A stretch of DNA of 64,000 bases, from NCBI RefSeq assembly GCF_000347635.1, contig NC_020514.1:3844001-3908000 (forward strand). The letters are read 5' to 3'. Each line of letters begins with the position of its first letter. Within the stretch, counting starts at the first letter, position 1. Shown in pieces: positions 8,468 to 58,842 of this stretch. Origin of the DNA: Paraglaciecola psychrophila 170 (lineage in GTDB: Bacteria > Pseudomonadota > Gammaproteobacteria > Enterobacterales > Alteromonadaceae). The translations under genes were made by a program, and so were the position numbers. The notes under the pieces are model-generated. The model made no database searches. It was not told the origin of the DNA and saw nothing but the letters and a program-made list of their open reading frames with translations.

Positions 8468-9187
8468 CTAACCCACCTGTAGAGCAGCTTGCTCAACAGC
8501 TGTGCTTGAGAAAACCTCTGTTAACTCACCCGCTTGCATGTGTAATTGACGCTGACATCTACCTGCCAACACCGGGTCGTGAGTCACTAATACCAGAGTA
8601 GTATTAGAATTTTGATTTAACTCAAACAATAACTTTTCAATTTTGTCGCTGTTGGCTGCATCCAAATTACCTGTGGGTTCATCTGCGAATAAGATTTTAG
8701 GTTCAGAAATAAACGCTCGCGCTATCGCGACACGTTGTTGTTCACCGCCAGATAACTGATTTGGATAGTGACTTGCTCTATGATCGAGCCCCACCAGTTG
8801 TAGAATGTCCAAGGCTCTTTTTTTCGCATCATCGTGGCCAGCTATCTCGGCTGGTAACATAATATTTTCTAATGCCGTTAAACTTTGAACCAACATAAAA
8901 CTTTGAAAAATAAAGCCCACTTTAGCCCCTCTTAATTGGGCTCGCTGTTCCTCATCCATGTTTTGCATGGCTTGACCATCTATAAATATTTCTCCCTCAC
9001 TCACCTCATCGAGTCCCGCCAACAAGCTAAGCAAAGTGGATTTACCTGAGCCTGACGCGCCAACTATTGCAATCGACTCACCCGCCTTGACTTCAAAGCT
9101 AATTGGCTTGAGGATCTGTAATTGACCTTGCGTCGTAGTAACTGTTTTACTAATACCGTTTGTCTTAATCATAGTTGTTGGAGTCAT
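8468..9187 (-). CDS. ybbA: ABC exporter ATP-binding protein (YbbA family)
   Basis: A 239-residue ATPase of the MacB/LolD class that energises the YbbP-like permease. Walker A is [10 protein letters not shown], the signature is [15 protein letters not shown], and Walker B is [12 protein letters not shown] followed by the H-loop VLVTHD. The ATG at 9187 gives the same N-terminal length as E. coli YbbA; an ATG at 9172 and a TTG at 9208 also exist. The start codon is one base from the divergent tesA start, so the two 5' regions overlap antisense. Operon: ybbA then ybbP. Confidence 0.9.
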
Positions 9188-9188
9188 A

Positions 9189-9857
9189 GTGCTGTTTCTT
9201 AATATCAATTCGTTACGAAATAAAATATATATATTATTGATCCTTATACCCTTATTACTGATTTCAGATCAGTTACAGGCTAAAGAAACCAAATTGCTTA
9301 TCTTAGGTGATAGCCTAAGTGCTGCCTATGGTTTAAAGCAAGAGCAAGGCTGGGTAAGTTTGTTACAAGATGCGTGGCAAGACAAAGATATTATTATTAT
9401 TAATGCTGCGATTAGCGGAGAAACTACAGACGGCGCCCTAGCTAGATTACCAAGATTGTTAAAACAACATAGTCCAACACATATTTTTGTTGAACTTGGT
9501 GGCAACGATGGTTTGCAAGGCCACCCTGTGAGTAAAATGCGCAACAATTTAGAGGAAATCATTCAATTATCGCAAGCAAGTCAGGTTAAAGTCATATTAC
9601 AACAAATGCAAATACCGACTAATTATGGTAAAAGATACACCCAAATGTTTACCGGCAGTTACGCACAACTAGCTGAGCAATATGCTCTAACAATGCTTCC
9701 TTTCTTTTTAGAAAACATTGCTTTAGATAAAAATTTGATGCAACGAGATGGCATTCACCCAACTGCTGAAGCACAAATTATCATAGCCAAAGATATGCAA
9801 AAAAGACTAGGCGATATATTTTCCCCTAGCAGAATAAAAAACAACCAACTAGAATAG
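9189..9857 (+). CDS. tesA: Arylesterase / acyl-CoA thioesterase I (TesA, SGNH hydrolase)
   Basis: Periplasmic multifunctional esterase, thioesterase and lysophospholipase. Residues 1-31 are a signal peptide with hydrophobic core ILLILIPLLLI. Block I GDSLSAAYG carries the nucleophile Ser42, block III GGND has Asn106, and the C-terminal DGIHP has Asp187 and His190, so the catalytic set is complete. The start is a GTG with ggag five bases upstream; no in-frame ATG would keep the signal peptide. It is divergent from ybbA, as in E. coli. Length of 222 residues is normal. Confidence 0.92.
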   Translation: MLFLNINSLRNKIYILLILIPLLLISDQLQAKETKLLILGDSLSAAYGLKQEQGWVSLLQDAWQDKDIIIINAAISGETTDGALARLPRLLKQHSPTHIFVELGGNDGLQGHPVSKMRNNLEEIIQLSQASQVKVILQQMQIPTNYGKRYTQMFTGSYAQLAEQYALTMLPFFLENIALDKNLMQRDGIHPTAEAQIIIAKDMQKRLGDIFSPSRIKNNQLE

Positions 9858-40042: not shown

Positions 40043-40887
40043 TTAGAACACTGCGAAAGTCGATGGGCTAAATAATGCTAATGTACTCATTAACTGTAAA
40101 TTACTAAAATCGAGTGCATTATCAACACATTCTAAATCGATTCCTAGACTTTCATACATATCCTCTGTTATGCCGTCATGGGATGCATAAAGTTCACGGT
40201 TAATATTATTCAGAGCTAATAAGTAAGCGAGTTGAATAATATTTTCTTCTTGGCTCTGGGCAGTATGTTCACTTACATGTGTTTTTGAGACTATTTTCGA
40301 GATATCTGAGGGTATACCCCAGAGTTCTAACAGTTCAAAAGAAATATCAGCGTAAGAAAAACCCAGATGCTTTTTTTGTAATACTAAAGGAGTATCTTCG
40401 CGAGAGATAGATGAGCATTTATTCGCTTCAATTGGATTTAATTGCACCAAAACTAGTTCACCAAGATTGTGTAACAAACCACACACAAACATCTTTCAGG
40501 CTCATTCAGCCCTACTCGTTCGGCTAAATTTTTACATAACAAAGCACAACTTACACTTTGTTCCCAAAACCTATTTAAATCTACAATATCAGGATTAATC
40601 TCTTTAAAAGCACTTGCAACACCATAAGCGAGCACAAGGTCATAGATTGAGCGCGTACCAATTACCTGAATTGCTTTGGTAACTGTGGAGATAGTGTTCG
40701 GAAATTTATACAAGGCACTATTAGAAATCTTCAACACTTTTGACATGACGGCAGGATCATAATTAATCACCTCTGCAATATCATCTATAGAAGTAGCATC
40801 ATCATTAATTAACTGTTTAATTTTTATCACCGATTCCGGTAACACAAAAACATCACCAGCGTTTACTGCATAGTCTCGTACATTCAT
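40043..40887 (-). CDS. HDOD domain protein, frame broken
   Basis: HDOD domain of a signalling output family (HD-related, usually without phosphodiesterase activity). The first part reads LPESVIKIKQLINDD, EVINYDPAVMSKVLKISNSA, KAIQVIGTRSIYDLVLAYG and FWEQSVSCALLCKNLAERVG. Near 40491-40496 (tctttc) the frame changes by one base and continues MFVCGLLHNLGELVLVQ, then the helical C-terminal part to 40043. One missing base restores a protein of about 281 residues. The ATG at 40887 has ggag eight bases upstream; one at 40935 has none. An assembly error or a recent mutation could explain the break. Confidence 0.75.
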
Positions 40888-46027: not shown

Positions 46028-46756
46028 CTAAACAGTTGATTGAGCTGAACGGGGAGGATGTGCAGAATCCGCTGCTTCCGCACCTGATGATAGCGCTTGC
46101 CTGTGCAAAATGCTGGAAAACTCCTCCATAAAATTACCGTAGCTATTTTCAAGTTTTTCTACTTGATGACTAAATCGGTTGTAGGCGATAACAGCAGGTA
46201 TGGCGGCAAATAAACCCATTGCAGTGGCGATTAGTGCTTCGGCAATACCAGGCGCAACCATTGATAACGTAGCTTGTTGCTGCCCGCCTAGAGCGATAAA
46301 CGAATTCATTATCCCCCACACAGTGCCAAACAAACCAATGTAAGGACTAATAGAACCAGTGGTAGCTAAAAACGGCAAACGACTTTCCAAACGATCAATT
46401 TCGCGAGACATAGACACACGCATTGCTCTTGAAGCCCCTTCCATAACAGCTTCTGCTGGAGTAGAAACGTTCTTCCGAGAGCGAACGAATTCTTTAAAAC
46501 CGGCACAAAATACACTGGCCATGCCTTCCAAGGATTGACGAGCTGCCAATTCTTGATAAAAGCGATTAAGGTCGACACCAGACCAAAATTTATCTTCAAA
46601 CTTTTTCATTTCAGAACGTGCAAAATTTAATGCCCGACTTCGTTCAAAAATAAATGCCCATGAAGCAACCGATGCCCCAAGCAACAACAACATAACTAGT
46701 TGCACCAACAAACTAGCTTCTAAAATAAGATCTATGAAAGATATCTCAGATGACAC
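46028..46756 (-). CDS. tolQ: Tol-Pal system protein TolQ (ExbB family)
   Basis: A 242-residue inner-membrane proton-channel subunit with three TM helices (about residues 15-37, 135-157 and 170-192). [22 protein letters not shown] and [23 protein letters not shown] are the conserved TM2/TM3 blocks. The start is GTG at 46756 with aggggaa upstream, and it overlaps the ybgC end by 11 bp. Confidence 0.95.
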
Positions 46757-47142
46757 GTGAAAATTCCCCTAAAATTTTATCAGGAATAGCTTGTGGTTTC
46801 ATATTGGATAAGTCGACACAAACTACTTTGATTAACGCACTGACCAAACGCTGTTCATTTGGACTTATTATTATTTGCTTGAATATTAAACTAGCACGCT
46901 TTAATTCTACTATTTCAGACTGAATACACAACAATTCATTGAAACGAGCAGGCGCGTGATTGTCCATTTCAACCCGTTTGACGACAAAACCCACGGAACG
47001 TTCCAAAAGAATATCTTGTTCTGTGCCCATTTGCCTTAACCACTCGGTTCTGGCACAACTTCAGATAGTTAGCATAATATACTATGCCACCAGCGTCTGT
47101 GTCTTCGTAATACACTCGTACATTGTGACTATGTTTGCTCAT
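46746..47142 (-). CDS. ybgC: Acyl-CoA thioesterase YbgC, frame broken
   Basis: Hotdog thioesterase at the head of the tol-pal operon. From the ATG at 47142 the frame reads [20 protein letters not shown] and VYYANYLK, the active-site region with the catalytic Asp. Near 47060 the frame changes: the family sequence [14 protein letters not shown] continues in another frame and runs intact to 46746 ([20 protein letters not shown]). One missing base would give an uninterrupted protein of about 132 residues, the usual length. Sequencing error or a recent mutation; YbgC is dispensable in E. coli. Confidence 0.85.
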
Positions 47143-48882: not shown

Positions 48883-49506
48883 TTAAGCCATTGCTCGGAG
48901 AGCTTCTCGGATCAAGGCTTCGCTGCTGATATCTTGTTTATACACCGCGTTAATCACTCTCATCGCCTGTGGGGGTTTGTATCCTAAAGCAATCAATGCG
49001 CTTAAGGCTTCTTCTTTCGCATCAGTACGTTGTACAAAGGTGTTCTCAACAGGTAAATCGGGCGTCAGATGCACGGTTTGCGCATAGCCCTGATCTTTGG
49101 CTAATTTGCTTAATCTATCGCGCATTTCAATGACTAAGCGTTCCGCTGTTTTTTTGCCGACACCAGGTAGCTTGGTTAAACCGGTAACATCTTCCAGACT
49201 GACACATTGCATAAATTGTTGTGCGTTCATACCTGACAATATAGTGAGTGCTAACTTTGGACCTACTCCGCTGGCTTTGATTAGTTCACGAAATACGGCA
49301 CGTTCTTGTTTATTGGCAAAACCAAACAACAGCTGTGCATCTTCACGCACTACAAAATGAATACATAGATTGGCTTCTTGACCGATTTCGGGTAATTGAT
49401 AAAAACTGGTCATAGGTACCTGCACTTCGTAACCCACGCCCCCCGCTTCTATCAGAATCTCAGGTGGCTGCTTTTCAATTAATATGCCACGAATATTACC
49501 TATCAT
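48883..49506 (-). CDS. ruvA: Holliday junction DNA helicase subunit RuvA
   Basis: Tetrameric junction-binding subunit of 207 residues. [20 protein letters not shown] opens the OB-fold domain I, helix-hairpin-helix motifs follow ([15 protein letters not shown] and [16 protein letters not shown]), and the C-terminal domain III ([18 protein letters not shown]) contacts RuvB. The ATG at 49506 has aagga upstream and matches the family start; the frame extends to 49629 without support. ruvC, normally directly upstream, is 8.8 kb away here. Confidence 0.95.
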
Positions 49507-49768
49507 TTTGTTTCCTTGTATTTTCATCGATGTGTGGAGGTTGTCGAGCATGGCGGTATGATTTTCAAGCGACAAATGAGGAAACGTAATCACTTTGACC
49601 GTAAATGAACCAGAAGCCAATTTGCTCAAGTAATGCTAACAGACTTTCAATTATAATAACTATCCCGGCGAATGTCTTTAAATGGAGTATTTTATAAAAG
49701 ACATCCATCATTATTATGCTGATTGAATTACAAATAGATTAGGGGCTAATATTTAGACGACGACACAC

Positions 49769-49792
49769 ATGGTCTTTATTGCTAAAGACCAT
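49769..49792. repeat. Perfect inverted repeat with four-base loop
   Basis: atggtcttta joins taaagaccat over ttgc. There is no T-tract on either side, so it is not a simple terminator. The first three bases are also the ATG of a 51-codon frame (49769-49924) with no recognised homology. Confidence 0.7.
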
Positions 49793-49985
49793 ATCGAATT
49801 TGAAATGTTACTCCGTCAGGAAAACATCAACATATCGCCCACCTTCTCCATCCTCAGTTATCTGAGCTTAAAAGAGGATTTGTTGCAGTTGCTATCTTTA
49901 TTACTCAAATATCTATATCAGTGAGGCTTATTTTTCATCATTCATACTGTATTGATTTACCCCGTTCAAAGTTGTTATTCACATT

Positions 49986-50030
49986 ATCAATTGATTCCAT
50001 ATATACTCAGTTGATTCTTTATGGAATCAA
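49986..50030. promoter_or_regulatory. Inverted-repeat upstream activator site
   Basis: ttgattccat (49991-50000) and atggaatcaa (50021-50030) form a perfect 10-bp inverted repeat with 20 bp between arms. A third half-site ttgattc lies at 50011-50017, and atcaattgat (49986-49995) is itself palindromic. The centre is about 130 bp upstream of the inferred transcription start, the usual place for a sigma-54 activator. The likely binder is the PAS/AAA+ regulator encoded in the same cluster. Confidence 0.6.
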
Positions 50031-50114
50031 CATGTCACATCATCTAGTATTAATAATTATTCAATATTACCTGCAAGCCTTGTTAACTTAACGTTTATAA
50101 AACATTTCAACTTG

Positions 50115-50130
50115 TGGCACTCTTGTTGCA
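50115..50130 (+). promoter_or_regulatory. Sigma-54 promoter (-24/-12)
   Basis: TGGCAC at 50115-50120, five bases, then TTGCA at 50126-50130, with the GG and GC dinucleotides exactly spaced as in TGGCAC-N5-TTGCW. Transcription should start near 50141, giving a leader of about 45 bases before the ATG at 50187. Confidence 0.85.
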
Positions 50131-50186
50131 AAGTTGCTTTTATATTGTAACTTTCCACGAAATAACGCAGCGAGCAAAATTGTAAA

Positions 50187-51338
50187 ATGCAAATTTCATC
50201 ATTTAAGTCAGCCCAAAAACTTATCACAGGCCAAGGTTGTTCTTCTTCTCTTATCGAACATTTAAAATCGTTTAGAATAAAATTTCCATTAATCGTTACT
50301 GATAAAGGTGTAAGAAAATCAGGCACCCTAGAGTTAATAACAAGCCAGCTGTTTGACTATGAGTTTTCGATTTTTGATGATGTTAAGCCAGAACCTGATG
50401 ACGAAGTCGTTAAGCATTGTTTTAGTGTTTATCAAACAAAACCTCATGACGCGATCATTAGTGTTGGTGGTGGTAGCGCAATAGATATAGCAAAGTGCAT
50501 TGCCGTTATGGCTGGAAACAACCAAGATTTAAACAGCATGTTTGGTGAAGATAAAGTGTTAGGTAAAGGCATACCGCATATTGCGATACCTACAACCGCA
50601 GGAACAGGTTCTGAAGTCACCAATATCGCCATTTTAGCGGTACCGTCTGAACACACAAAAAAAGGCATTGTCAGTGACTTCTTGCTCCCTAATTTAGCCA
50701 TTGTTGCGCCTGAGATGACTGTAAGTTGCCCAGCTAACATTACGGCAGCAAGTGGCGTGGATGCTTTAGTGCATTGTATTGAAGCTTACTTATCCAATTT
50801 TGCCAGTCCAATTACCAATGCATTAGCGATTAAAGCGATGGGTATGATAATGACCAATTTACCCATTGCTTATCAATCACCAGAAGACTTAACTGCTCGC
50901 GAAAATATGGCTACTGCAAGCTTAATGGCGGGTCTATCTTTTGGTAATGCAGGGGTTGGGGCTGTGCACGCTTTAGCGTATCCGCTGGGCGCTAAATTTC
51001 ATATTCCTCATGGGGTCAGTAATGCTTTGTTACTGCCTTTTGTAATGAAGTGGAATAAACCTTTTTGTCTAGATCGTTTTGTCGAAATGGCAATCGCTCT
51101 ATCGACCCCTATCTCACATAATGACGATGCAGAAGTGATAGCGGATAAGGTCATTCAGCAATTGCATGATTTGTGCGCGACTGTCGGTATTCCCAAGGGT
51201 TTACATTCTTTAGGTATCAATACACAAGACATACCTGACTTAGCTACTGAAGCGATTAAAGTTGAGCGTTTACTTAGAAATAACCCTAGAAGATTATCAG
51301 TATCAGATATTGAACAGATCTATCAAGAAGCATATTAA
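50187..51338 (+). CDS. Iron-containing alcohol dehydrogenase, possibly 4-hydroxybutyrate dehydrogenase
   Basis: Group III NAD-dependent alcohol dehydrogenase of 383 residues. The cofactor motif is ISVGGGSAIDIAK (GGGS 94-97), then PTTAGTGSEVTNIAI. The metal ligands Asp192, His196, His261 and His275 are all present (GVDALVHCIEAY, GAVHALAYPLGAKFHIPHG). It is the first gene after the sigma-54 promoter. Presence of a GabD-like enzyme in the same operon suggests the substrate is 4-hydroxybutyrate, since some 4-hydroxybutyrate dehydrogenases belong to this family, but 1,3-propanediol or other alcohols are not excluded. Confidence 0.85.
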   Translation: MQISSFKSAQKLITGQGCSSSLIEHLKSFRIKFPLIVTDKGVRKSGTLELITSQLFDYEFSIFDDVKPEPDDEVVKHCFSVYQTKPHDAIISVGGGSAIDIAKCIAVMAGNNQDLNSMFGEDKVLGKGIPHIAIPTTAGTGSEVTNIAILAVPSEHTKKGIVSDFLLPNLAIVAPEMTVSCPANITAASGVDALVHCIEAYLSNFASPITNALAIKAMGMIMTNLPIAYQSPEDLTARENMATASLMAGLSFGNAGVGAVHALAYPLGAKFHIPHGVSNALLLPFVMKWNKPFCLDRFVEMAIALSTPISHNDDAEVIADKVIQQLHDLCATVGIPKGLHSLGINTQDIPDLATEAIKVERLLRNNPRRLSVSDIEQIYQEAY

Positions 51339-51386
51339 TTTCGATACATAATAATATTAATACATAATAATTTGGAATACTGACGC

Positions 51387-52770
51387 ATGAAATGGAAAAA
51401 CCATAAATATGGAACTGAAACTTCTTTTTATCCGCTAGGGCCGTTTAAAGTTCGGCTACCTTTCTTGCATTATAGATTCGAGTTTCCTGACTACTTGCAA
51501 GGGTTATTGATGTGTGCAGTTGATCTGGCAGCTATCCCCCTTATGGTCGAATTGCTGGGCATGCCATTTGAAGCGGCAATAGCAATAGTAATGATCAATG
51601 GCTTTTTGTATTTATTCCACCATATCTTAGGTGACCCTGTTATTCCCGGATGGATAACACCTGCGGTACCCTTGTTAATCGCCTATGTACAAACTTTTGA
51701 CCCTGGGCCGGATAGAGTGCATGCACTCATTGCATTTCAAATGACGCTTGGCATGCTTGCAATTGTATTAGGACAAACCAAACTCGCTTCTAAAGTAGTC
51801 AAGCTGATCCCTTCTGCCATTAAAGCAGGTGTCATAATAGGAGCAGGTTTGGCAGCCATTGTGGTGGTATTTAAAGAGGGGGGTAGGTTTGAACAATTTC
51901 CGATTACGATAACCATCGCAGTTGGTCTTGCATTCTATTTAATTTTCTCACCACATTTTGCCGAACTTAAATTGCGTAACAAATTTTGGGCTAATTTTGG
52001 AAAACTAGGCATCTTTCCTATCATTATTTTAGCGGTGGTTTTAGCTCCTCTGGTATCAGAAGCCAACTGGCCTGATATCGAATGGGGACTAACCCAACCA
52101 AATTTCGCGCTAATGTTCAATGAATATACTGTTTTTGGTGTCGGTCTTCCTGACACTTCAATGTTCTTAACGGCCATTCCAACAGCACTTGCAGCTTACA
52201 TCGTATTGTTTGGTGACATTCTGCAATCAAAAGCTATTTTAGATGAAGCGGACGAAATAAGAGCTGATGAAAAAGTTGACTACGATGCGAATCGCTCTCA
52301 CTTAATTTTTGGTGGAAGAAACGTACTCATGAGTATCTTTGGTCCAGATGTCGTTATGTGTGGTCCGCTTTGGGCAGCAATGCAAGTGGTTATAGTTGAG
52401 CGCTATAAACAAGGTAGAGAAGCCATGCAATCGATATTTGGTGGCTCGGGATCATTCAGATGGGGGCACAAACACAGGGTTATTACTCCTTCCAGTGGTT
52501 AGTTTAGTACAGCCTATACTTGGTGTTGCGCTAGCCTTAACGTTACTAATACAAGGGTTTGTAAGCTTTCGGATAGGTGTTATGGAGGCCAAAAGTCAAA
52601 GAGATTTAGGTATTGCAGGCATCATCGCCGCCATCCTCGTGACAAAAGGGGCAACCTGGGCGTTTGCCGTAGGAATATTACTTGTGTTGTTAATCTACGG
52701 CAAAAACTTTTTCAAAGGTGAGCCTGATAAAATAGCAATAGCGCAAAAACCAAGTGACGGTGATGAATGA
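51387..52770 (+). CDS. NCS2/SLC23-like permease, frame broken in a G run
   Basis: Multi-TM inner-membrane carrier, about 460 residues after joining two frames. The first frame, from ATG at 51387, gives most TMs (FPDYLQGLLMCAVDLAAIPL, DPVIPGWITPAVPLLIAYV, IPTALAAYIVLFGDILQSKA). In the G5 run 52462-52466 the frame breaks; with one G less, FGGSGSFRWG is followed by TNTGLLLLPVVSLVQPILGV and the last TMs to 52770. The fold resembles xanthine/uracil permeases, but the branch is distant and a carboxylate substrate is possible from context. The last four bases overlap the regulator start. The indel may be a sequencing error. Confidence 0.65.
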
Positions 52771-54143
52771 AAATTTTTAATGAAAAATTTCTTCAACCCG
52801 TTCTAGATGCATTACCAGACGGTGTATACATCACCGATGGTAATGGTGTTACGGTCGGTGTTAACAGTGCTTACGAACGCATTACTGGGCTACAAAGACA
52901 TCGTATTCTTGGTAAACATATGCAGGATTTAGTGAGGGATGGATATATTTCTAATTCTGTCTCACTAGAGGTCATACGTGAACGACAACCCATTACCAGG
53001 GTACAAACCATTAAAGGAAACCGTAAAATTGTCGTCAGCGGTAATCCAATGTTTGATGAAAATGGCACGCTTGAATATGTCATCAGTTCTGTTCGAGATG
53101 TGACAGCGCTTTTACGTGCCAAACATGCCGAAGAACAATTAGAGCGAATACTCACAGTTAGAAAAGAATATTTTATTGATGTTGATGTGCATACGGATAA
53201 AGCCGGTGTATTAACGGGTACTAATACGCGTCAATGTTACAGGTTGGCTGAAAAAGTTGCCGCCACTGACGTTAAAATACTGATACAGGGTGAAACCGGA
53301 ACAGGTAAGACACTACTTGCTCAGTTTATTCATGACAATAGCCTTCGTTCGGCCGCTCCGTTTATTTCACTAAACTGTGCTGCAATGCCTGAAGGGTTAA
53401 TCGAGGCTGAGCTTTTTGGTTATACGCCAGGAGCATTTACTGGTGCATCCTCCAGAGGAAAAGAAGGCCTGTTAGATATTGCCAATGGCGGCACTCTTTT
53501 TCTAGATGAAATTGGCGACTTACCGCTTTCGCTGCAAGCAAAATTGCTAAAAGTCATCGAAGAAAACAAGTTTTTACCCTTAGGCGGAACCCGCTTCAAA
53601 AATACCAATATACGGCTTATTACAGCTACCCATCATGACCTTAAACAAGCGATTGCTGATGGTAAATTTAGAGAAGACTTGTATTATCGATTACAGGTTA
53701 TGCCACTTGATTTACCCCCTCTACGTAAGCGTCAAGACGAGATCTCGCCGTTGCTTACCCATTACTTAAACCACTATGCCAAGCGCTATAATACTGAAAA
53801 GGCCCTGCATCCAGAAACATTAGAAGTGCTTATACACTACAAATGGCCAGGTAATATTCGTGAATTAATGAACTTGGTAGAACGACTCGTGCTCATTACC
53901 GAACGGTCAGAAATCCTTCCCAATGACTTACCTGAATCTATTAGACCCCTAGTAGCGCACAGCGACCCTTATTCTTCAGGAAGTTTAAAACAGCAAGTAG
54001 GAGATTTGGAGCGAGAGCTCATCTCTAATGCACTCAGTTTGTACGGCTCCACTAGAGCCGCTGCAGCCTCACTAGGTATTAATCAATCGACGTTGGTTAA
54101 AAAACGTCAAAGCTTTCAATCTATTAACAAGGACAAAATGTGA
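52767..54143 (+). CDS. Sigma-54-dependent transcriptional activator (PAS, AAA+, Fis-type HTH)
   Basis: A 458-residue enhancer-binding protein. Residues 8-115 are a PAS domain (ALPDGVYITDGNGVTVGVNS), residues 150-380 the AAA+ domain with Walker A GETGTGKT (175-182), the sigma-54 contact GAFTGA (222-227) and Walker B GGTLFLDEIGD, and residues 425-455 a Fis-type helix-turn-helix (STRAAAASLGINQSTLVKKR). No receiver domain: a small molecule sensed by PAS is likely, perhaps the pathway substrate. Overlaps of 4 bp with the permease upstream and the dehydrogenase downstream place it in the operon it should activate. Confidence 0.92.
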   Translation: MKIFNEKFLQPVLDALPDGVYITDGNGVTVGVNSAYERITGLQRHRILGKHMQDLVRDGYISNSVSLEVIRERQPITRVQTIKGNRKIVVSGNPMFDENGTLEYVISSVRDVTALLRAKHAEEQLERILTVRKEYFIDVDVHTDKAGVLTGTNTRQCYRLAEKVAATDVKILIQGETGTGKTLLAQFIHDNSLRSAAPFISLNCAAMPEGLIEAELFGYTPGAFTGASSRGKEGLLDIANGGTLFLDEIGDLPLSLQAKLLKVIEENKFLPLGGTRFKNTNIRLITATHHDLKQAIADGKFREDLYYRLQVMPLDLPPLRKRQDEISPLLTHYLNHYAKRYNTEKALHPETLEVLIHYKWPGNIRELMNLVERLVLITERSEILPNDLPESIRPLVAHSDPYSSGSLKQQVGDLERELISNALSLYGSTRAAAASLGINQSTLVKKRQSFQSINKDKM

Positions 54144-55591
54144 ACCTGCAAGACTTATCTATTTTCAAAAATCAATGCCTTATCAACGGACAATGGTCAT
54201 CGCACTCTGAATTAATAGATGTACGTAACCCTGCTGATGGCAAAATCCTGACTCAAGTACCCTATATGGATGGTATCGAAACCAGATTGGCAATTAACGC
54301 AGCTAACCACGCATTGAGTTCATGGAAATCATTAACCGCTTACAAACGAGCTGAGATACTCATGAAATGGCATGATCTAGTGGTCGCACGAGCCAATGAT
54401 CTAGCCACAATTATGACGCTTGAACAAGGTAAGCCACTTAATGAAGCAAAAGGAGAAGTATTATATGCAGCAAGTTATATTAAGTGGTTTGCAGAAGAGG
54501 CACGTCGTGCATACGGCGAAATTATACCCAGTGAAGACAATACCAAAAAGATCCACGTTACCAAAGAGCCCATAGGGGTATGTGCTGCAATCACACCTTG
54601 GAATTTCCCTGCCGCAATGATCACTAGAAAAGTGGCGCCAGCACTGGCTGCTGGCTGTACGATTGTTGTAAAACCAGCCATGGAAACACCATTGACTGCC
54701 TTTGCACTGCTAGGCTTAGCACAAGACGCAGGCGTACCAGATGGTGTGATCAACGTATTAACCGGTGACGCTAAAAAGATTGGTGCCGAAATGACATCTA
54801 ATCCTATTGTCCGCAAGCTCAGCTTCACAGGCTCTACATCAGTAGGCGCGAAGCTAATGGCAGATTGTGCTCCGTCTATCAAAAAATTATCGCTTGAGCT
54901 TGGTGGCAATGCGCCATTCATTGTATTTGATGATGCCAACTTAGAGCTTGCTGCATCTGAATTAATCAAGAGTAAATTCAGAAATGCTGGCCAAACGTGC
55001 GTATGTGCGAACCGTATTTACATTCAAAAAGGGGTGTATAAACAATTTTCTGAAGTATTTTTAGAGAAAGTCAAACAACTTAAAGTGGGAAATGGGCTTG
55101 AAGCTGGCACTAATATCGGCCCACTAATTGACCAAAAAGCAGTACGCAAAGTACGTCAGCACATCGAAGACGCGTTATGCAAAGGCGCATCTATTTTGAT
55201 TGGCGGTGAACCCCACAGCAATAGCGACAACTGGTTTCCACCCACAGTTTTACTCAATGCAAACCAAACTATGCAATGCGCCAACGAAGAAACGTTTGGT
55301 CCACTTGCTCCACTAATTTGCTTCGACACCATTGATGCAGCCATTCAAATGGCAAATAGCACAGAGTTTGGTCTCGCTGCTTATATGTTCTCAGAAAACC
55401 ACCGTACCATTGAAAAAGTGAGTAGTCGCTTGGAAGTGGGCATGGTCGGGGTTAACACCGGCATCATATCTACTGCCGTTGCGCCTTTTGGAGGCGTTAA
55501 ATCAAGTGGTATTGGTAGAGAGGGCGCACGTGCCGGATTAGATGAATATTTAGAAATAAAATACGTTTGTTATGGTATGGGATTAAGTTAA
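54140..55591 (+). CDS. gabD: Succinate-semialdehyde dehydrogenase-like aldehyde dehydrogenase
   Basis: NAD(P) aldehyde dehydrogenase of 483 residues. Cofactor and catalytic motifs: ITPWNFPAAM, FTGSTSVGAKLM, LELGGNAPF (Glu253) and NAGQTCVCANR with catalytic Cys287 and a second Cys289, the pair that forms a redox switch in known SSADH. The end VGVNTGIISTAVAPFGGVKS and YLEIKYVCYG is characteristic of GabD. It starts at a GTG overlapping the regulator stop by 4 bp. It should oxidise succinic semialdehyde to succinate, feeding the TCA cycle. Confidence 0.88.
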   Translation: MNLQDLSIFKNQCLINGQWSSHSELIDVRNPADGKILTQVPYMDGIETRLAINAANHALSSWKSLTAYKRAEILMKWHDLVVARANDLATIMTLEQGKPLNEAKGEVLYAASYIKWFAEEARRAYGEIIPSEDNTKKIHVTKEPIGVCAAITPWNFPAAMITRKVAPALAAGCTIVVKPAMETPLTAFALLGLAQDAGVPDGVINVLTGDAKKIGAEMTSNPIVRKLSFTGSTSVGAKLMADCAPSIKKLSLELGGNAPFIVFDDANLELAASELIKSKFRNAGQTCVCANRIYIQKGVYKQFSEVFLEKVKQLKVGNGLEAGTNIGPLIDQKAVRKVRQHIEDALCKGASILIGGEPHSNSDNWFPPTVLLNANQTMQCANEETFGPLAPLICFDTIDAAIQMANSTEFGLAAYMFSENHRTIEKVSSRLEVGMVGVNTGIISTAVAPFGGVKSSGIGREGARAGLDEYLEIKYVCYGMGLS

Positions 55592-55672
55592 CGCCACGGA
55601 TGAATTTCAAACCATTGTCTAAAAGCTCCAAGAAATAAAACGCCAGTAATGGCAAAACAAAAAAGGTAAAAC

Positions 55673-56728
55673 ATGTCACATATAACTAATAAAATATTAA
55701 AAACCACTATTTCAGCGCTATTTATCGGTATCACAGTAGCGTGTAGTTCATTTGCTGCGATTGCCGCTGAAAAAACGGAGATAGAGAAATTATTGGCTGA
55801 TACGCCAAGTAATTGGGGTAAATGGGGAAACGATGATCAGATTGGTGCGCTAAATTACTTAGATGAAAATGAAGTAAAACGTGGTGTAAAAGCAATCCAG
55901 TCAGGTGAGCGTTTTACTTTGCAACTTCCTATGATCCATGGAGTAGGTCCCGTTTTTCCTGGCAGGATCCCAGTCCAACATTTTATGTCTCAAGATGAAA
56001 GTGTTTATTCAGCAAACAAACAGCAGCCTGCAAGCGGTGGAATGAAATATTCTGACGATGCAGTCTTCATGTATTTACAAGGCACAACACACATTGATGC
56101 GCTCGGTCACGCTTGGTATTCAGATAAGATTTATAATGGAAAATCCGCAGATACAACTGTACATGGCCACGATTTTGTAGATATTGCACAGCTAGGCGAT
56201 GTGGGTATTGCAGGTCGAGGGGTATTAGTCGATATAGGTCGTTTACGCGGTGACAGTAACCATCGATTGGCCCCAGGCAACTGTGTCACATTAGACGATA
56301 TTAAAAGTGCGGCTAAAAAACAGAAACTTGAGATAAAAAAGAGAGATATTTTAATGATCCGTACTGGATCTATGGGACGATTTTATGACGAAGCGGATAA
56401 TAAAAATTGGAATGCATTAACGGAGCCGGGCCTTTGTTACAGTAAGGCGCTAGTTAAGTGGATAGACGATATGGAAATCCCTGTAATAGCTGCAGATAAC
56501 TTAGCAATTGAGTTAGCGGCGCAAGAAATCAATGGTTCAACCATGGTCATTCCTCTTCATGGTGCTTTGATCAGAGATTTGGGGGTGGTATTAACGGAAC
56601 TATACTGGCTTGATGATCTAGCTGACGATTCAGCAAAAGATGGTCAATACAGTTTCTTTTTCACCGCAGCCCCCCTAAAAATGAAAGGTGGGTCAGGCTC
56701 ACCCGTTAATCCAATGGTCATCAAATAA
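55673..56728 (+). CDS. Exported cyclase-family metal hydrolase
   Basis: A 351-residue protein of the cyclase family (Pfam PF04199), whose members hydrolyse N-formylkynurenine, isatin and other cyclic or acylated compounds. The signature HxxxDxxxH-type site is YLQGTTHIDALGHAW with His140, Asp142 and His146, and the late HGALIRDLG also fits. A signal peptide of about 32 residues, ending AAIAAE, sends it to the periplasm, which is unusual for the family. aaggt precedes the ATG. It lies 81 bp after the dehydrogenase gene and is probably part of the same transcript. Confidence 0.82.
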   Translation: MSHITNKILKTTISALFIGITVACSSFAAIAAEKTEIEKLLADTPSNWGKWGNDDQIGALNYLDENEVKRGVKAIQSGERFTLQLPMIHGVGPVFPGRIPVQHFMSQDESVYSANKQQPASGGMKYSDDAVFMYLQGTTHIDALGHAWYSDKIYNGKSADTTVHGHDFVDIAQLGDVGIAGRGVLVDIGRLRGDSNHRLAPGNCVTLDDIKSAAKKQKLEIKKRDILMIRTGSMGRFYDEADNKNWNALTEPGLCYSKALVKWIDDMEIPVIAADNLAIELAAQEINGSTMVIPLHGALIRDLGVVLTELYWLDDLADDSAKDGQYSFFFTAAPLKMKGGSGSPVNPMVIK

Positions 56729-56741
56729 TAAGGTAGTTATC

Positions 56742-56757
56742 GGGGCGGTTCCGCCCC
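56742..56757. other. GC-rich hairpin between hydrolase and porin genes
   Basis: ggggcgg and ccgcccc are directly adjacent, giving a six-base-pair stem with a four-base loop, 14 bp after the hydrolase stop. There is no T-tract on the plus strand. It could protect mRNA ends or partly attenuate transcription into the porin gene. Confidence 0.5.
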
Positions 56758-56889
56758 AAAAAGCAATTTTCTCCTCAATTTTGAACTGTGAAAATCAGTG
56801 TGGGGATCATTGTGTCTAAATTTTATGATCAAGCACTTTAACTTTCATTAAAAACTAATTATTTGACTACAAAAATAAAAGAGAACAAC

Positions 56890-58053
56890 ATGAAAAACAA
56901 AAAAACATTTAAGTTATCTGCCGCCGCAATGATAATAATTGCAACCACGCATACCCAAGCTGTCGAAATTGAAAATGATGGTTATACGTTTGGGTTTAAT
57001 GGCTATGTCAACACCCATGCGGTATTCGTCAGTTGCGATGATAACCCAGATATCGTTGCTGGAAATGCGTTGTTGTGTGCGGGTGATGATGCGACATCGG
57101 TTTCTAATGGCTACAGTCCCTCGAGCTTTGAATTCAGCGCGACAACTGAAAAAAACGGAATTAATATAAAAGCCGTCTTTGCATATGAGCCGGGCAATAC
57201 CGACAACAGTGCCTTTAACGGTAGTGGCGACAACAAAGCCTATCGCGCTTTTTTTACCTTTGGTAACGATGAGCTTGGAACATTCAAAGCAGGTCGAGAC
57301 TATGGTGTATTTGGTATCGACATTGTGCTTCAAGATATATCGTTAGGAGGCGTAGGTGCGCCAGCATTGGTTACCAGTCCGCTAAATACCAGTCTTGGCG
57401 GTGCAGGTTACGGCTATATATTTGCAGACCGTTTATCACAACTAACCTACTCTTTTGCAAAAGATGGCATGAGCGGTGCAATCGGCGTATTTCAGCCCTT
57501 AGATCCCGTTTCATTTGGGGGTAACGGATTTGTTGGCGATAGCGGCTCTAGAACGCCTGGGGTTCACGGTAAACTCAGATATGACTTTGATACTGGGTTT
57601 ATTTCTACAACCTTTTTATCTCAAAGCGTAGACACCACTTTTAATGATTATGACGCGACCGGTATCGATTTAACATTTGTGTATAATATGGGTAATATTA
57701 GCTTGTTGGCGTCAGGATTTTCAGCTGACGGTTTGGGCCACTATGGCTTATTAATTGATGGCTCTGATAACGCAGCTAACCCGAGAAACAGCGACGGGTA
57801 TTTTATACAAGCTACACACAAACTTGATAACACCAAATTGGGTATTAATTACGGTATTTCAAATGTTGATTTAGCGCCCCAAGATACGGCAATACAAGTT
57901 AAACAACAAAGTAAAATGACGGTAGGTGTGTACCATACGTTATGGAGTTTGGTTACCATTTCTGCCGAATACTCAAATATTAAAGCAGAAAACCATCAAG
58001 CTGGTGAAATTAAGAATCAGGCGTTTAGCGTTGGCGCAGCCATACGTTTTTAG
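56890..58053 (+). CDS. Outer-membrane porin-like beta-barrel
   Basis: A 387-residue protein with a signal peptide ending THTQA, then alternating beta strands starting YTFGFNGYVNTHAVF, including FKAGRDYGVFGIDIVLQD, a loop-3-like constriction region as in general porins, and ending in the aromatic terminus GAAIRF required for barrel assembly. Two Cys (SCDDNPDIVAGNALLC) could form a disulfide in an outer loop. The ATG at 56890 is chosen because it begins the signal peptide; the frame opens at 56863. It closes the catabolic cluster, so it probably admits the substrate. Confidence 0.78.
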   Translation: MKNKKTFKLSAAAMIIIATTHTQAVEIENDGYTFGFNGYVNTHAVFVSCDDNPDIVAGNALLCAGDDATSVSNGYSPSSFEFSATTEKNGINIKAVFAYEPGNTDNSAFNGSGDNKAYRAFFTFGNDELGTFKAGRDYGVFGIDIVLQDISLGGVGAPALVTSPLNTSLGGAGYGYIFADRLSQLTYSFAKDGMSGAIGVFQPLDPVSFGGNGFVGDSGSRTPGVHGKLRYDFDTGFISTTFLSQSVDTTFNDYDATGIDLTFVYNMGNISLLASGFSADGLGHYGLLIDGSDNAANPRNSDGYFIQATHKLDNTKLGINYGISNVDLAPQDTAIQVKQQSKMTVGVYHTLWSLVTISAEYSNIKAENHQAGEIKNQAFSVGAAIRF

Positions 58054-58071
58054 CTACTACTTTTAGTTACC

Positions 58072-58096
58072 AAAGGGGGCGTTTCGACGCTCTCTT
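58072..58096 (+). terminator. Terminator at the end of the catabolic cluster
   Basis: gggggcgt and acgctctc pair across a ttcg loop (two G-T pairs), followed by a short T-rich tail, 20 bp after the porin stop. Confidence 0.6.
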
Positions 58097-58320
58097 GTTG
58101 ATTTAGCAAGGAAAACTTAGTTTTGCTAATTAAATGCTTAAAGATAGTTCTCGGTAAGAATAAATTTATTCCGAGAATAAACAATACTGTAATGGTTATA
58201 TCATTCAAAATATCGTAAATATTTGAATTGATTTATCCCTATAATTTGAATACTTAAACTAACATTCTGAACAACTAATACAGGCTCTTTCCAAAGTAGT
58301 CAAAGAGCATAGCAGGCGAG

Positions 58321-58842
58321 TTATCGCAACCGCCCACGCACAGTTTTTGTGGCTTGGCCGGACATTTTTATTAAGCTTTGTTGGGTGTGATTGTGACACA
58401 GGGCAACAGCAAGGGCATCTGCTGCATCGGCTTGGGGTTTTGAGGCCAGCCCTAACAAGTACGTCACCATATGCTGAACTTGAGATTTGTCGGCATTACC
58501 GTTACCCACAACTGATTGTTTGATTTGCCGCGCTGAATATTCAGCAACGGGTAAATCAAAAGTCGTTGCAGCTACTATCGCCGCGCCTCTGGCTTGACCA
58601 AGCTTTAATGCTGAATCAGGATTTTTCGCCATAAAGACTTGTTCAATCGCAAACTGGGTAGGTTGGAATTGGTGAATAATTTCTCTCACACCATCGAAGA
58701 TTTGTTTTAGCCTAGGAGCGAGTTCAGTGCCTTGCAAACGAATACAACCGCTGCCGATATATTCAGACTTCTGACCGACTTTTTTTATGACTCCATAACC
58801 AGTAATACGAGAGCCGGGATCAATTCCCAAGATAATCGCCAT
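58321..58842 (-). CDS. ruvC: Holliday junction resolvase RuvC
   Basis: Endonuclease of the RuvABC complex, 173 residues. The four acidic residues are in place: [13 protein letters not shown] (Asp7), [20 protein letters not shown] (Glu), and [14 protein letters not shown] (two Asp). It normally lies directly before ruvA; here the catabolic cluster separates the two. nudB and aspS are upstream on the same strand. Confidence 0.96.

Follow-up and report, generated by a model that had tools for sequence, protein, structure and literature searches.

A cluster of six genes in Paraglaciecola psychrophila 170 is probably a horizontally moving operon for the catabolism of gamma-butyrolactone (GBL) and gamma-hydroxybutyrate (GHB, the same compound as 4-hydroxybutyrate), and a parallel version of the blcABC operon of Agrobacterium. 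We assign this reading as a whole, horizontal movement included, a joint probability of roughly 0.72. The cluster was found in a 64,000-nucleotide stretch of contig NC_020514.1 (positions 3,844,001 to 3,908,000, forward strand), here called the window, in whose positions all coordinates are given; the genome is 5.41 Mb long and in one contig. Here ruvC and ruvA, both on the minus strand, are kept apart by six plus-strand genes (50187-58053), recognized from the open reading frame (ORF) list, Pfam, and NCBIfam. In order, they encode an iron-containing alcohol dehydrogenase (Fe-ADH), a permease, a PAS/sigma-54 activator, a succinate-semialdehyde dehydrogenase (SSADH), a PF04199 hydrolase, and a porin-like protein. 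An initial annotation made from the sequence alone had named the same six gene types, and these hold, except that the permease gene does not form a single open frame, being broken near 52462-52466. The features of the locus are as follows.

48883-49506, minus: ruvA, left flank; start at 49506 from alignment to relatives.
49525-58312, no strand: inserted segment, delimited by alignment to relatives whose ruvC-ruvA site is empty.
50010-50031, plus: palindrome GTTGATTC-N6-GAATCAAC, candidate activator site, from an inverted repeat search.
50115-50130, plus: sigma-54 promoter TGGCAC-N5-TTGCA, an exact -24/-12 match at a conserved site.
50187-51338, plus: Fe-ADH, proposed GHB dehydrogenase (PF00465/PF25137).
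51387-52770, plus: NCS2/PurT-like permease, proposed GHB importer, frame-broken (intact relatives, PurT homology).
52767-54143, plus: sigma-54 activator with PAS, AAA+, and HTH domains (PF00989, PF00158, PF18024); GAFTGA read in the translation.
54140-55591, plus: SSADH (TIGR01780).
55673-56728, plus: exported PF04199 metal-dependent hydrolase, proposed lactonase/esterase; signal peptide recognized by eye.
56863-58053, plus: porin-like outer-membrane protein, without a Pfam hit; the start common to relatives is 56890.
58073-58096, plus: terminator-like hairpin, from a terminator scan.
58321-58842, minus: ruvC, right flank (PF02075).

In the pathway that we propose, a small lactone or GHB ester would pass the porin, and in the periplasm the exported PF04199 metal hydrolase would open it, yielding the hydroxy acid. 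The NCS2-like permease would import GHB, the Fe-ADH would oxidize it to succinate semialdehyde, and the SSADH would complete the route to succinate. The PAS/AAA+ activator would sense a pathway compound, bind the upstream palindrome, and open the sigma-54 promoter. The substrate, the direction of transport, and the PF04199 reaction are the parts of this route that we infer.

The genes co-occur in other genomes, as emerged from the search for the set elsewhere that had been suggested with the initial annotation. An alignment of the permease family gave at least 536 loci encoding a permease relative, and the best 80 of these were compared; tblastn was used to find same-strand neighbors up to 6 kb away. 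The permease is accompanied by an Fe-ADH in 57 loci and by a zinc-type alcohol dehydrogenase (Zn-ADH) in 21, never by both, and by neither in two (L005 and L060); the model nearest to the Zn-ADH is that of NDMA-dependent alcohol dehydrogenases, with a score below its cut-off. The presence of exactly one dehydrogenase type at 78 of 80 permease loci upholds the earlier picture of a self-contained route of uptake and oxidation. SSADH is found near the permease in 42 of the 80 loci by ORF clustering and in 37 by tblastn at a threshold of at least 45%. The hydrolase is present in 18 loci, of which 16 also have SSADH and 17 an alcohol dehydrogenase. By record title the 80 loci come from Gammaproteobacteria, Alphaproteobacteria, Bacteroidota, and Bacillota. 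That two unrelated dehydrogenases replace each other beside one permease argues, from gene context, that the cargo of the permease is an alcohol. Another genome of the genus (G020/L114) holds a different gene in its ruvC-ruvA gap, and the six genes might on that ground be taken for a chance assembly of unrelated ones at a site that tolerates insertions; the recurrence of the set in other genera and phyla contradicts this idea, to which we give practically no chance.

The comparison with Agrobacterium narrows the likely substrate. As described in PMC5924552, blcABC degrades GBL to GHB and succinate semialdehyde; our reference was blcRABC (attJKLM) of the C58 plasmid pAt (L136). The window SSADH passes TIGR01780 (674.2 bits versus a cut-off of 646.35), as does BlcA, to which it is 58% identical. 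The best evidence on the substrate comes from a plasmid search with the permease, which gave eight records at E ≤ 1e-40, three of which were read in context. On the Agrobacterium MWF001 plasmid (CP129670.1), a permease homologue annotated as hypothetical, 68% identical over 346 of the first 355 residues of the window protein, follows a BlcA homologue (71%) at a distance of 31 bp, in a locus that also holds homologues of BlcR (62%), BlcB (85%), and BlcC (94%). A Thioclava plasmid carries a row of IclR, SSADH, Fe-ADH, and permease genes, with the SSADH 72% identical to BlcA and the Fe-ADH 67% identical to BlcB. On a plasmid from Fusobacteria, an Fe-ADH gene is found two genes upstream of the permease, with no annotated SSADH within 6 kb. 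Compared by pairwise identity, 45 of the 57 Fe-ADHs near the permease resemble that of the window more and 12 resemble BlcB more (56-71%); the window enzyme occupies the place held by BlcB-type enzymes in those 12 loci.

Two further neighbors bear on the same step. In Kushneria phyllosphaerae (L057), a lactonase of the AttM/BlcC family (461 bits versus a cut-off of 390) stands between the permease and the Zn-ADH, the only one of its type found in the 80 loci; the genome of L058 has a second AttM-type lactonase (59%) outside its permease locus. In four Bacteroidota loci, a gene resembling a gamma-aminobutyrate (GABA) transaminase lies beside the hydrolase and points to the succinate-semialdehyde node; the only one scored, in L019, reaches 500.2 bits, just below the cut-off of 506.65. 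Taken together, the linkage to blc genes, the lactonase neighbor, and the GABA-transaminase-like neighbor suggest that succinate semialdehyde is the node and GHB the imported hydroxy acid. The initial annotation could not match the route to a named pathway, a statement that the parallel with blcABC does not support, and its guess of 4-hydroxybutyrate or butyrolactone is now well supported by the MWF001 locus, the BlcB-type Fe-ADHs, and the L057 lactonase. A gene that by eye resembles class II fumarase follows the permease and Zn-ADH in Kushneria (L057, 13529-14908; also L059 and L066), a neighbor that fits a pathway ending at succinate.

A like architecture could serve another substrate, such as an omega-hydroxy acid or diol (5-hydroxyvalerate/delta-valerolactone or 1,4-butanediol), or an amide or lactam such as 2-pyrrolidinone, which would feed GABA as well as GHB. 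The pairing of the permease with two quite different alcohol dehydrogenases and the four GABA-transaminase-like genes beside the hydrolase would be in keeping with such a substrate, as would the amidohydrolases that the PF04199 family includes according to PMC5341072. The SSADH, however, scores above its subfamily cut-off, and the permease is found with homologues of blcA, blcB, and blcC and with an AttM-type lactonase, so that we consider a different substrate unlikely.

The permease belongs to a large family: of 7999 candidates scored, 1628 are homologues at E ≤ 0.001; the names of the 120 homologues listed, where present, are mostly hypothetical protein or permease. PurT transports purines. 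One intact relative of the window permease, P0003 of Paraglaciecola arctica, is 41% identical to PurT (7tak) over 434 residues (E 1.4e-111), and the permease could in principle be a nucleobase transporter that merely neighbors an operon for alcohol oxidation. It would then be hard to see why either type of alcohol dehydrogenase should stand nearby at 78 of 80 loci in several phyla, or why a homologue should sit in a blc locus; moreover, no purine gene was recognized by eye among 18 neighbor proteins, a small part of all neighbors. We regard a nucleobase transporter as very improbable. The NCS2/NAT model PF00860 does not reach its cut-off with the relatives scored (P0003, no hit; P0078, 26.1 versus 27). 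The NAT family takes in ascorbate carriers too, according to abstracts, and small acids are thus within reach of the fold. Returning to GHB as the cargo, we tentatively propose, at somewhat less than even odds, that this NCS2/PurT-related family is a dedicated GHB importer, partnered in marine bacteria and Bacteroidota by a lactonase with the PF04199 fold that acts outside the cytoplasm.

Sigma-54 control, claimed in the initial annotation, is borne out by conservation. A search of the window for -24/-12 elements with at most one mismatch gave three matches versus 3.00 expected by chance, the one at 50115 being the sole exact match; because of that expectation, the support for this site is its conservation and not the match alone. 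Upstream sites were counted if they scored at least 9/12 and had both invariant pairs; by this criterion, 32 of the 35 Fe-ADH loci that have the activator show a sigma-54 site ahead of the Fe-ADH ORF, versus none of the 22 that lack it (Fisher P 7e-13, relatedness of the loci ignored). This coupling links activator and operon in Pseudomonadota and Bacillota alike, and in Bacillota loci with a same-strand activator its gene is upstream of the dehydrogenase, not behind the permease. The activator scores 219.8 with PF00158 (cut-off 20.2), and GAFTGA together with a cognate -24/-12 promoter marks it as a sigma-54 activator; its best model, the PrdR equivalog, gives 370.9, below the cut-off of 795. 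The palindrome at 50010-50031 precedes the promoter by about 85 bp, with a half copy at 49991-49998, and similar palindromes occur about 168-194 bp upstream in three of ten loci scanned (L003, L004, and L018).

As for a single transcriptional unit, which had been claimed for all six genes, the 4-nucleotide overlaps between permease and activator (52767-52770) and between activator and SSADH (54140-54143) suggest one only for these three, and the porin is at most a possible member. A GC-rich hairpin at 56742-56757, between the hydrolase and porin genes, was seen by eye and is not in the terminator-scan list; it may separate the transcription of the two. The porin-like gene occurs in nine of the 80 permease loci, in two of which (L013 and L077) it is on the opposite strand. 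The bounds first drawn for the cluster, 50115 and 58096, coincide with the start of the sigma-54 site and the end of the terminator-like hairpin. In the region, terminator-like hairpins of this type are not enriched (nine versus a mean of 7.2 in shuffles), nor are sigma-70-type promoter sites (20 versus 23.5). A model of the porin-like protein has 16 long strands and one short strand and matches general-porin folds, suggesting with low confidence (pLDDT 66.2) that it forms a barrel.

That the cluster had been inserted into a normally tight ruvC-ruvA run is supported by the comparison of this interval across relatives, as first suggested. RuvC was located in all 22 genomes of the genus, and the interval was compared in 20 of the 21 others; G011, whose match is fragmentary (residues 2-116), was the one left out. 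The interval measures about 8.8 kb in the window, against -4 to 94 bp for 19 of the 20 and 1507 bp for the other, G020; in none of these 20 does the cluster occupy the site. Neither result that would have refuted the initial annotation was obtained: the genes do not adjoin ruvC in these 20 genomes, and the families do occur together elsewhere. In G016 (L111), the counterparts of the window sequence up to 49524 and from 58313 onward are only 87 bp apart, indicating that about 8.8 kb was inserted in the window, and eight other relatives give similar end points in empty-site alignments. The longest ruvA ORF begins 41 codons early (49507-49629, minus), and these extra residues, encoded almost wholly by the insertion, are probably spurious. 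The insertion in G020 (L114, 2619-3644, minus) is an unrelated 341-residue ORF with, by eye, the look of a lipoprotein of metallo-beta-lactamase fold; the junction may tolerate insertions.

Close orthologues of both hydrolase and permease are found in three of the 22 genomes, the window genome included. Four others have permease paralogues only (31-41% identity) and two have distant hydrolases only (29-31%); the closest named relatives of the window permease and hydrolase are from Paraglaciecola. In the other two carriers, G019 (L003) and G021 (L005), the cluster genes lie outside the fetched ruv interval, and the ruv location looks incidental because these genomes hold the cluster, whole or in part, elsewhere. 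Only the permease and hydrolase are kept near each other in G021; Fe-ADH, activator, and SSADH are missing within 6 kb. In this uncultured Paraglaciecola, the pair is flanked by two related copies of a 307-residue gene (8624-9547 and a downstream copy), acid-phosphatase-like by eye. Insertion by a recognizable mobile element was set aside, as the edges lack signs of one: neither edge segment recurs in its own genome or in five relatives at E ≤ 0.001, no transposase was recognized among edge ORFs of at least 90 residues, and the empty-site alignments, inspected by eye, show no target duplication. The cluster is not set apart by GC content (0.39-0.44 versus 0.33-0.45 around it). The gene set looks mobile, and its horizontal movement is covered by the joint figure given at the outset.

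The PF04199 hydrolase carries the weakest step of the proposed pathway, and we put the opening of a lactone by the exported enzyme at about even odds. It scores 63.5 bits with PF04199 (cut-off 23.1) and has the expected fold; the nearest structure is 5ibz (MGS0169), and the first 13 structures listed are 5ibz, isatin hydrolases, kynurenine formamidases, and related hydrolases. According to PMC5341072, MGS0169 is a metal-dependent carboxylesterase with a motif common to trans-dienelactone hydrolase, a lactonase, and the PF04199 enzymes include amidohydrolases. The counterparts of catalytic residues, Arg98, Gln136, Asp142, His146, His296, and Glu309, are identical in all 19 cluster members. Another possibility is that the hydrolase mainly breaks down lactone signals or polyester and ester debris, with catabolism secondary. 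BlcC cleaves both GBL and acyl-homoserine lactones (PMC5924552), and MGS0169 is an esterase (PMC5341072); by eye, the window enzyme appears exported. Such a role strikes us as quite improbable, since the genes linked to the hydrolase are for uptake and oxidation and SSADH accompanies it in 16 of 18 loci.

Several findings weigh against a GBL/GHB operon. SSADH is near the permease in only three of the 21 Zn-ADH loci, which means that in most of these the full route is not local, and many of the 80 loci are close relatives, so that locus counts are inflated and do not represent independent events. Identity between the window Fe-ADH and BlcB is only 38%, and the test of orthology to BlcB failed; with the 4-hydroxybutyrate dehydrogenase model NF058672 the window enzyme scores 277.8, below the cut-off of 500, although BlcB itself scores lower (228.3) and the model does not decide. 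The only solved relative of the permease found by sequence is PurT, a purine carrier. For the hydrolase, BLAST gives no hit to BlcC, and the motif is mixed: where the MGS0169 subgroup has Gln-x3-Gln-x-Asp-x3-His, all 19 cluster members have Gln136-x3-His140-x-Asp142-x3-His146. The best five class-level hydrolase matches after that of the window itself, one in G260 (59%) and four at 45-46%, have no cluster permease or alcohol dehydrogenase around them, and no cluster was found in the stretches of about 4 kb examined around weaker matches. Lastly, the permease frame is broken in the assembly.

This break falls at a G run near 52462-52466, where frame 51387-52502 gives way to frame 52396-52770. 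The intact permease of relatives has about 460 residues; all 18 relatives in the alignment are intact, and so is P0001, which is 97% identical to the window protein. When 21 window genes were compared with relatives (15 from G016 and six from G019), three were frame-broken in the window: the permease and two of the 15 neighboring genes. One of the latter, a ybgC-like thioesterase gene (about 46749-47142, minus) named by eye and adjoining tolQ/tolR-like ORFs, is in two frames, versus an intact ORF of 134 residues in G016 and G017; the other (40046-40887, minus) is also in two frames, versus 281 residues intact in the same genomes. Breaks in a usually conserved gene make an assembly indel likely for the permease as well, although the break may reflect recent decay. 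Programmed frameshifting was set aside, as the 18 intact relatives and the three broken genes among 21 better fit assembly indels.

If the proposed route is correct, lactone opening would be shifted to the periplasm, and a charged hydroxy acid, not a neutral lactone, would be taken up. A widespread, mostly unnamed permease family would gain GHB as a candidate substrate, and a branch of PF04199 would be linked to lactone or ester catabolism. The parts of the GHB pathway would be exchangeable, with either of two dehydrogenase families, either of two lactonase folds, and control of the sigma-54 or the IclR type. A literature search aimed at the pathway gave no description of this operon among the matches listed, which were openly licensed papers. 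The cluster is probably of a known kind, a GBL/GHB catabolic operon, and probably new as a variant with an exported PF04199 lactonase candidate and a probable GHB transporter family.

Overall, the window cluster combines features of several known systems. Its permease is related to PurT of the NCS2/NAT family but differs in its context of alcohol dehydrogenase and SSADH genes and in its proposed GHB cargo. Its activator has the PAS, AAA+, HTH, and GAFTGA elements of PrdR-like sigma-54 enhancer-binding proteins but a different regulon. Its hydrolase, which has an apparent signal peptide, differs from MGS0169 and trans-dienelactone hydrolase in having His140 for the second Gln of their motif. 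With the blc operon it shares the SSADH, an enzyme of the Fe-ADH family for the GHB step, and the logic of hydrolase, alcohol dehydrogenase, and SSADH. It differs in having an exported PF04199 hydrolase, whereas blc has the metallo-beta-lactamase enzyme BlcC; in having a sigma-54 PAS activator in place of the IclR repressor BlcR; and in adding a permease and a porin, although the blc locus of MWF001 does hold a homologue of the permease. Because three of four gene tests fail at the level of orthology (BlcB, BlcC, and BlcR), the cluster is not a blc operon by membership, but, by analogy, it very probably works like one.

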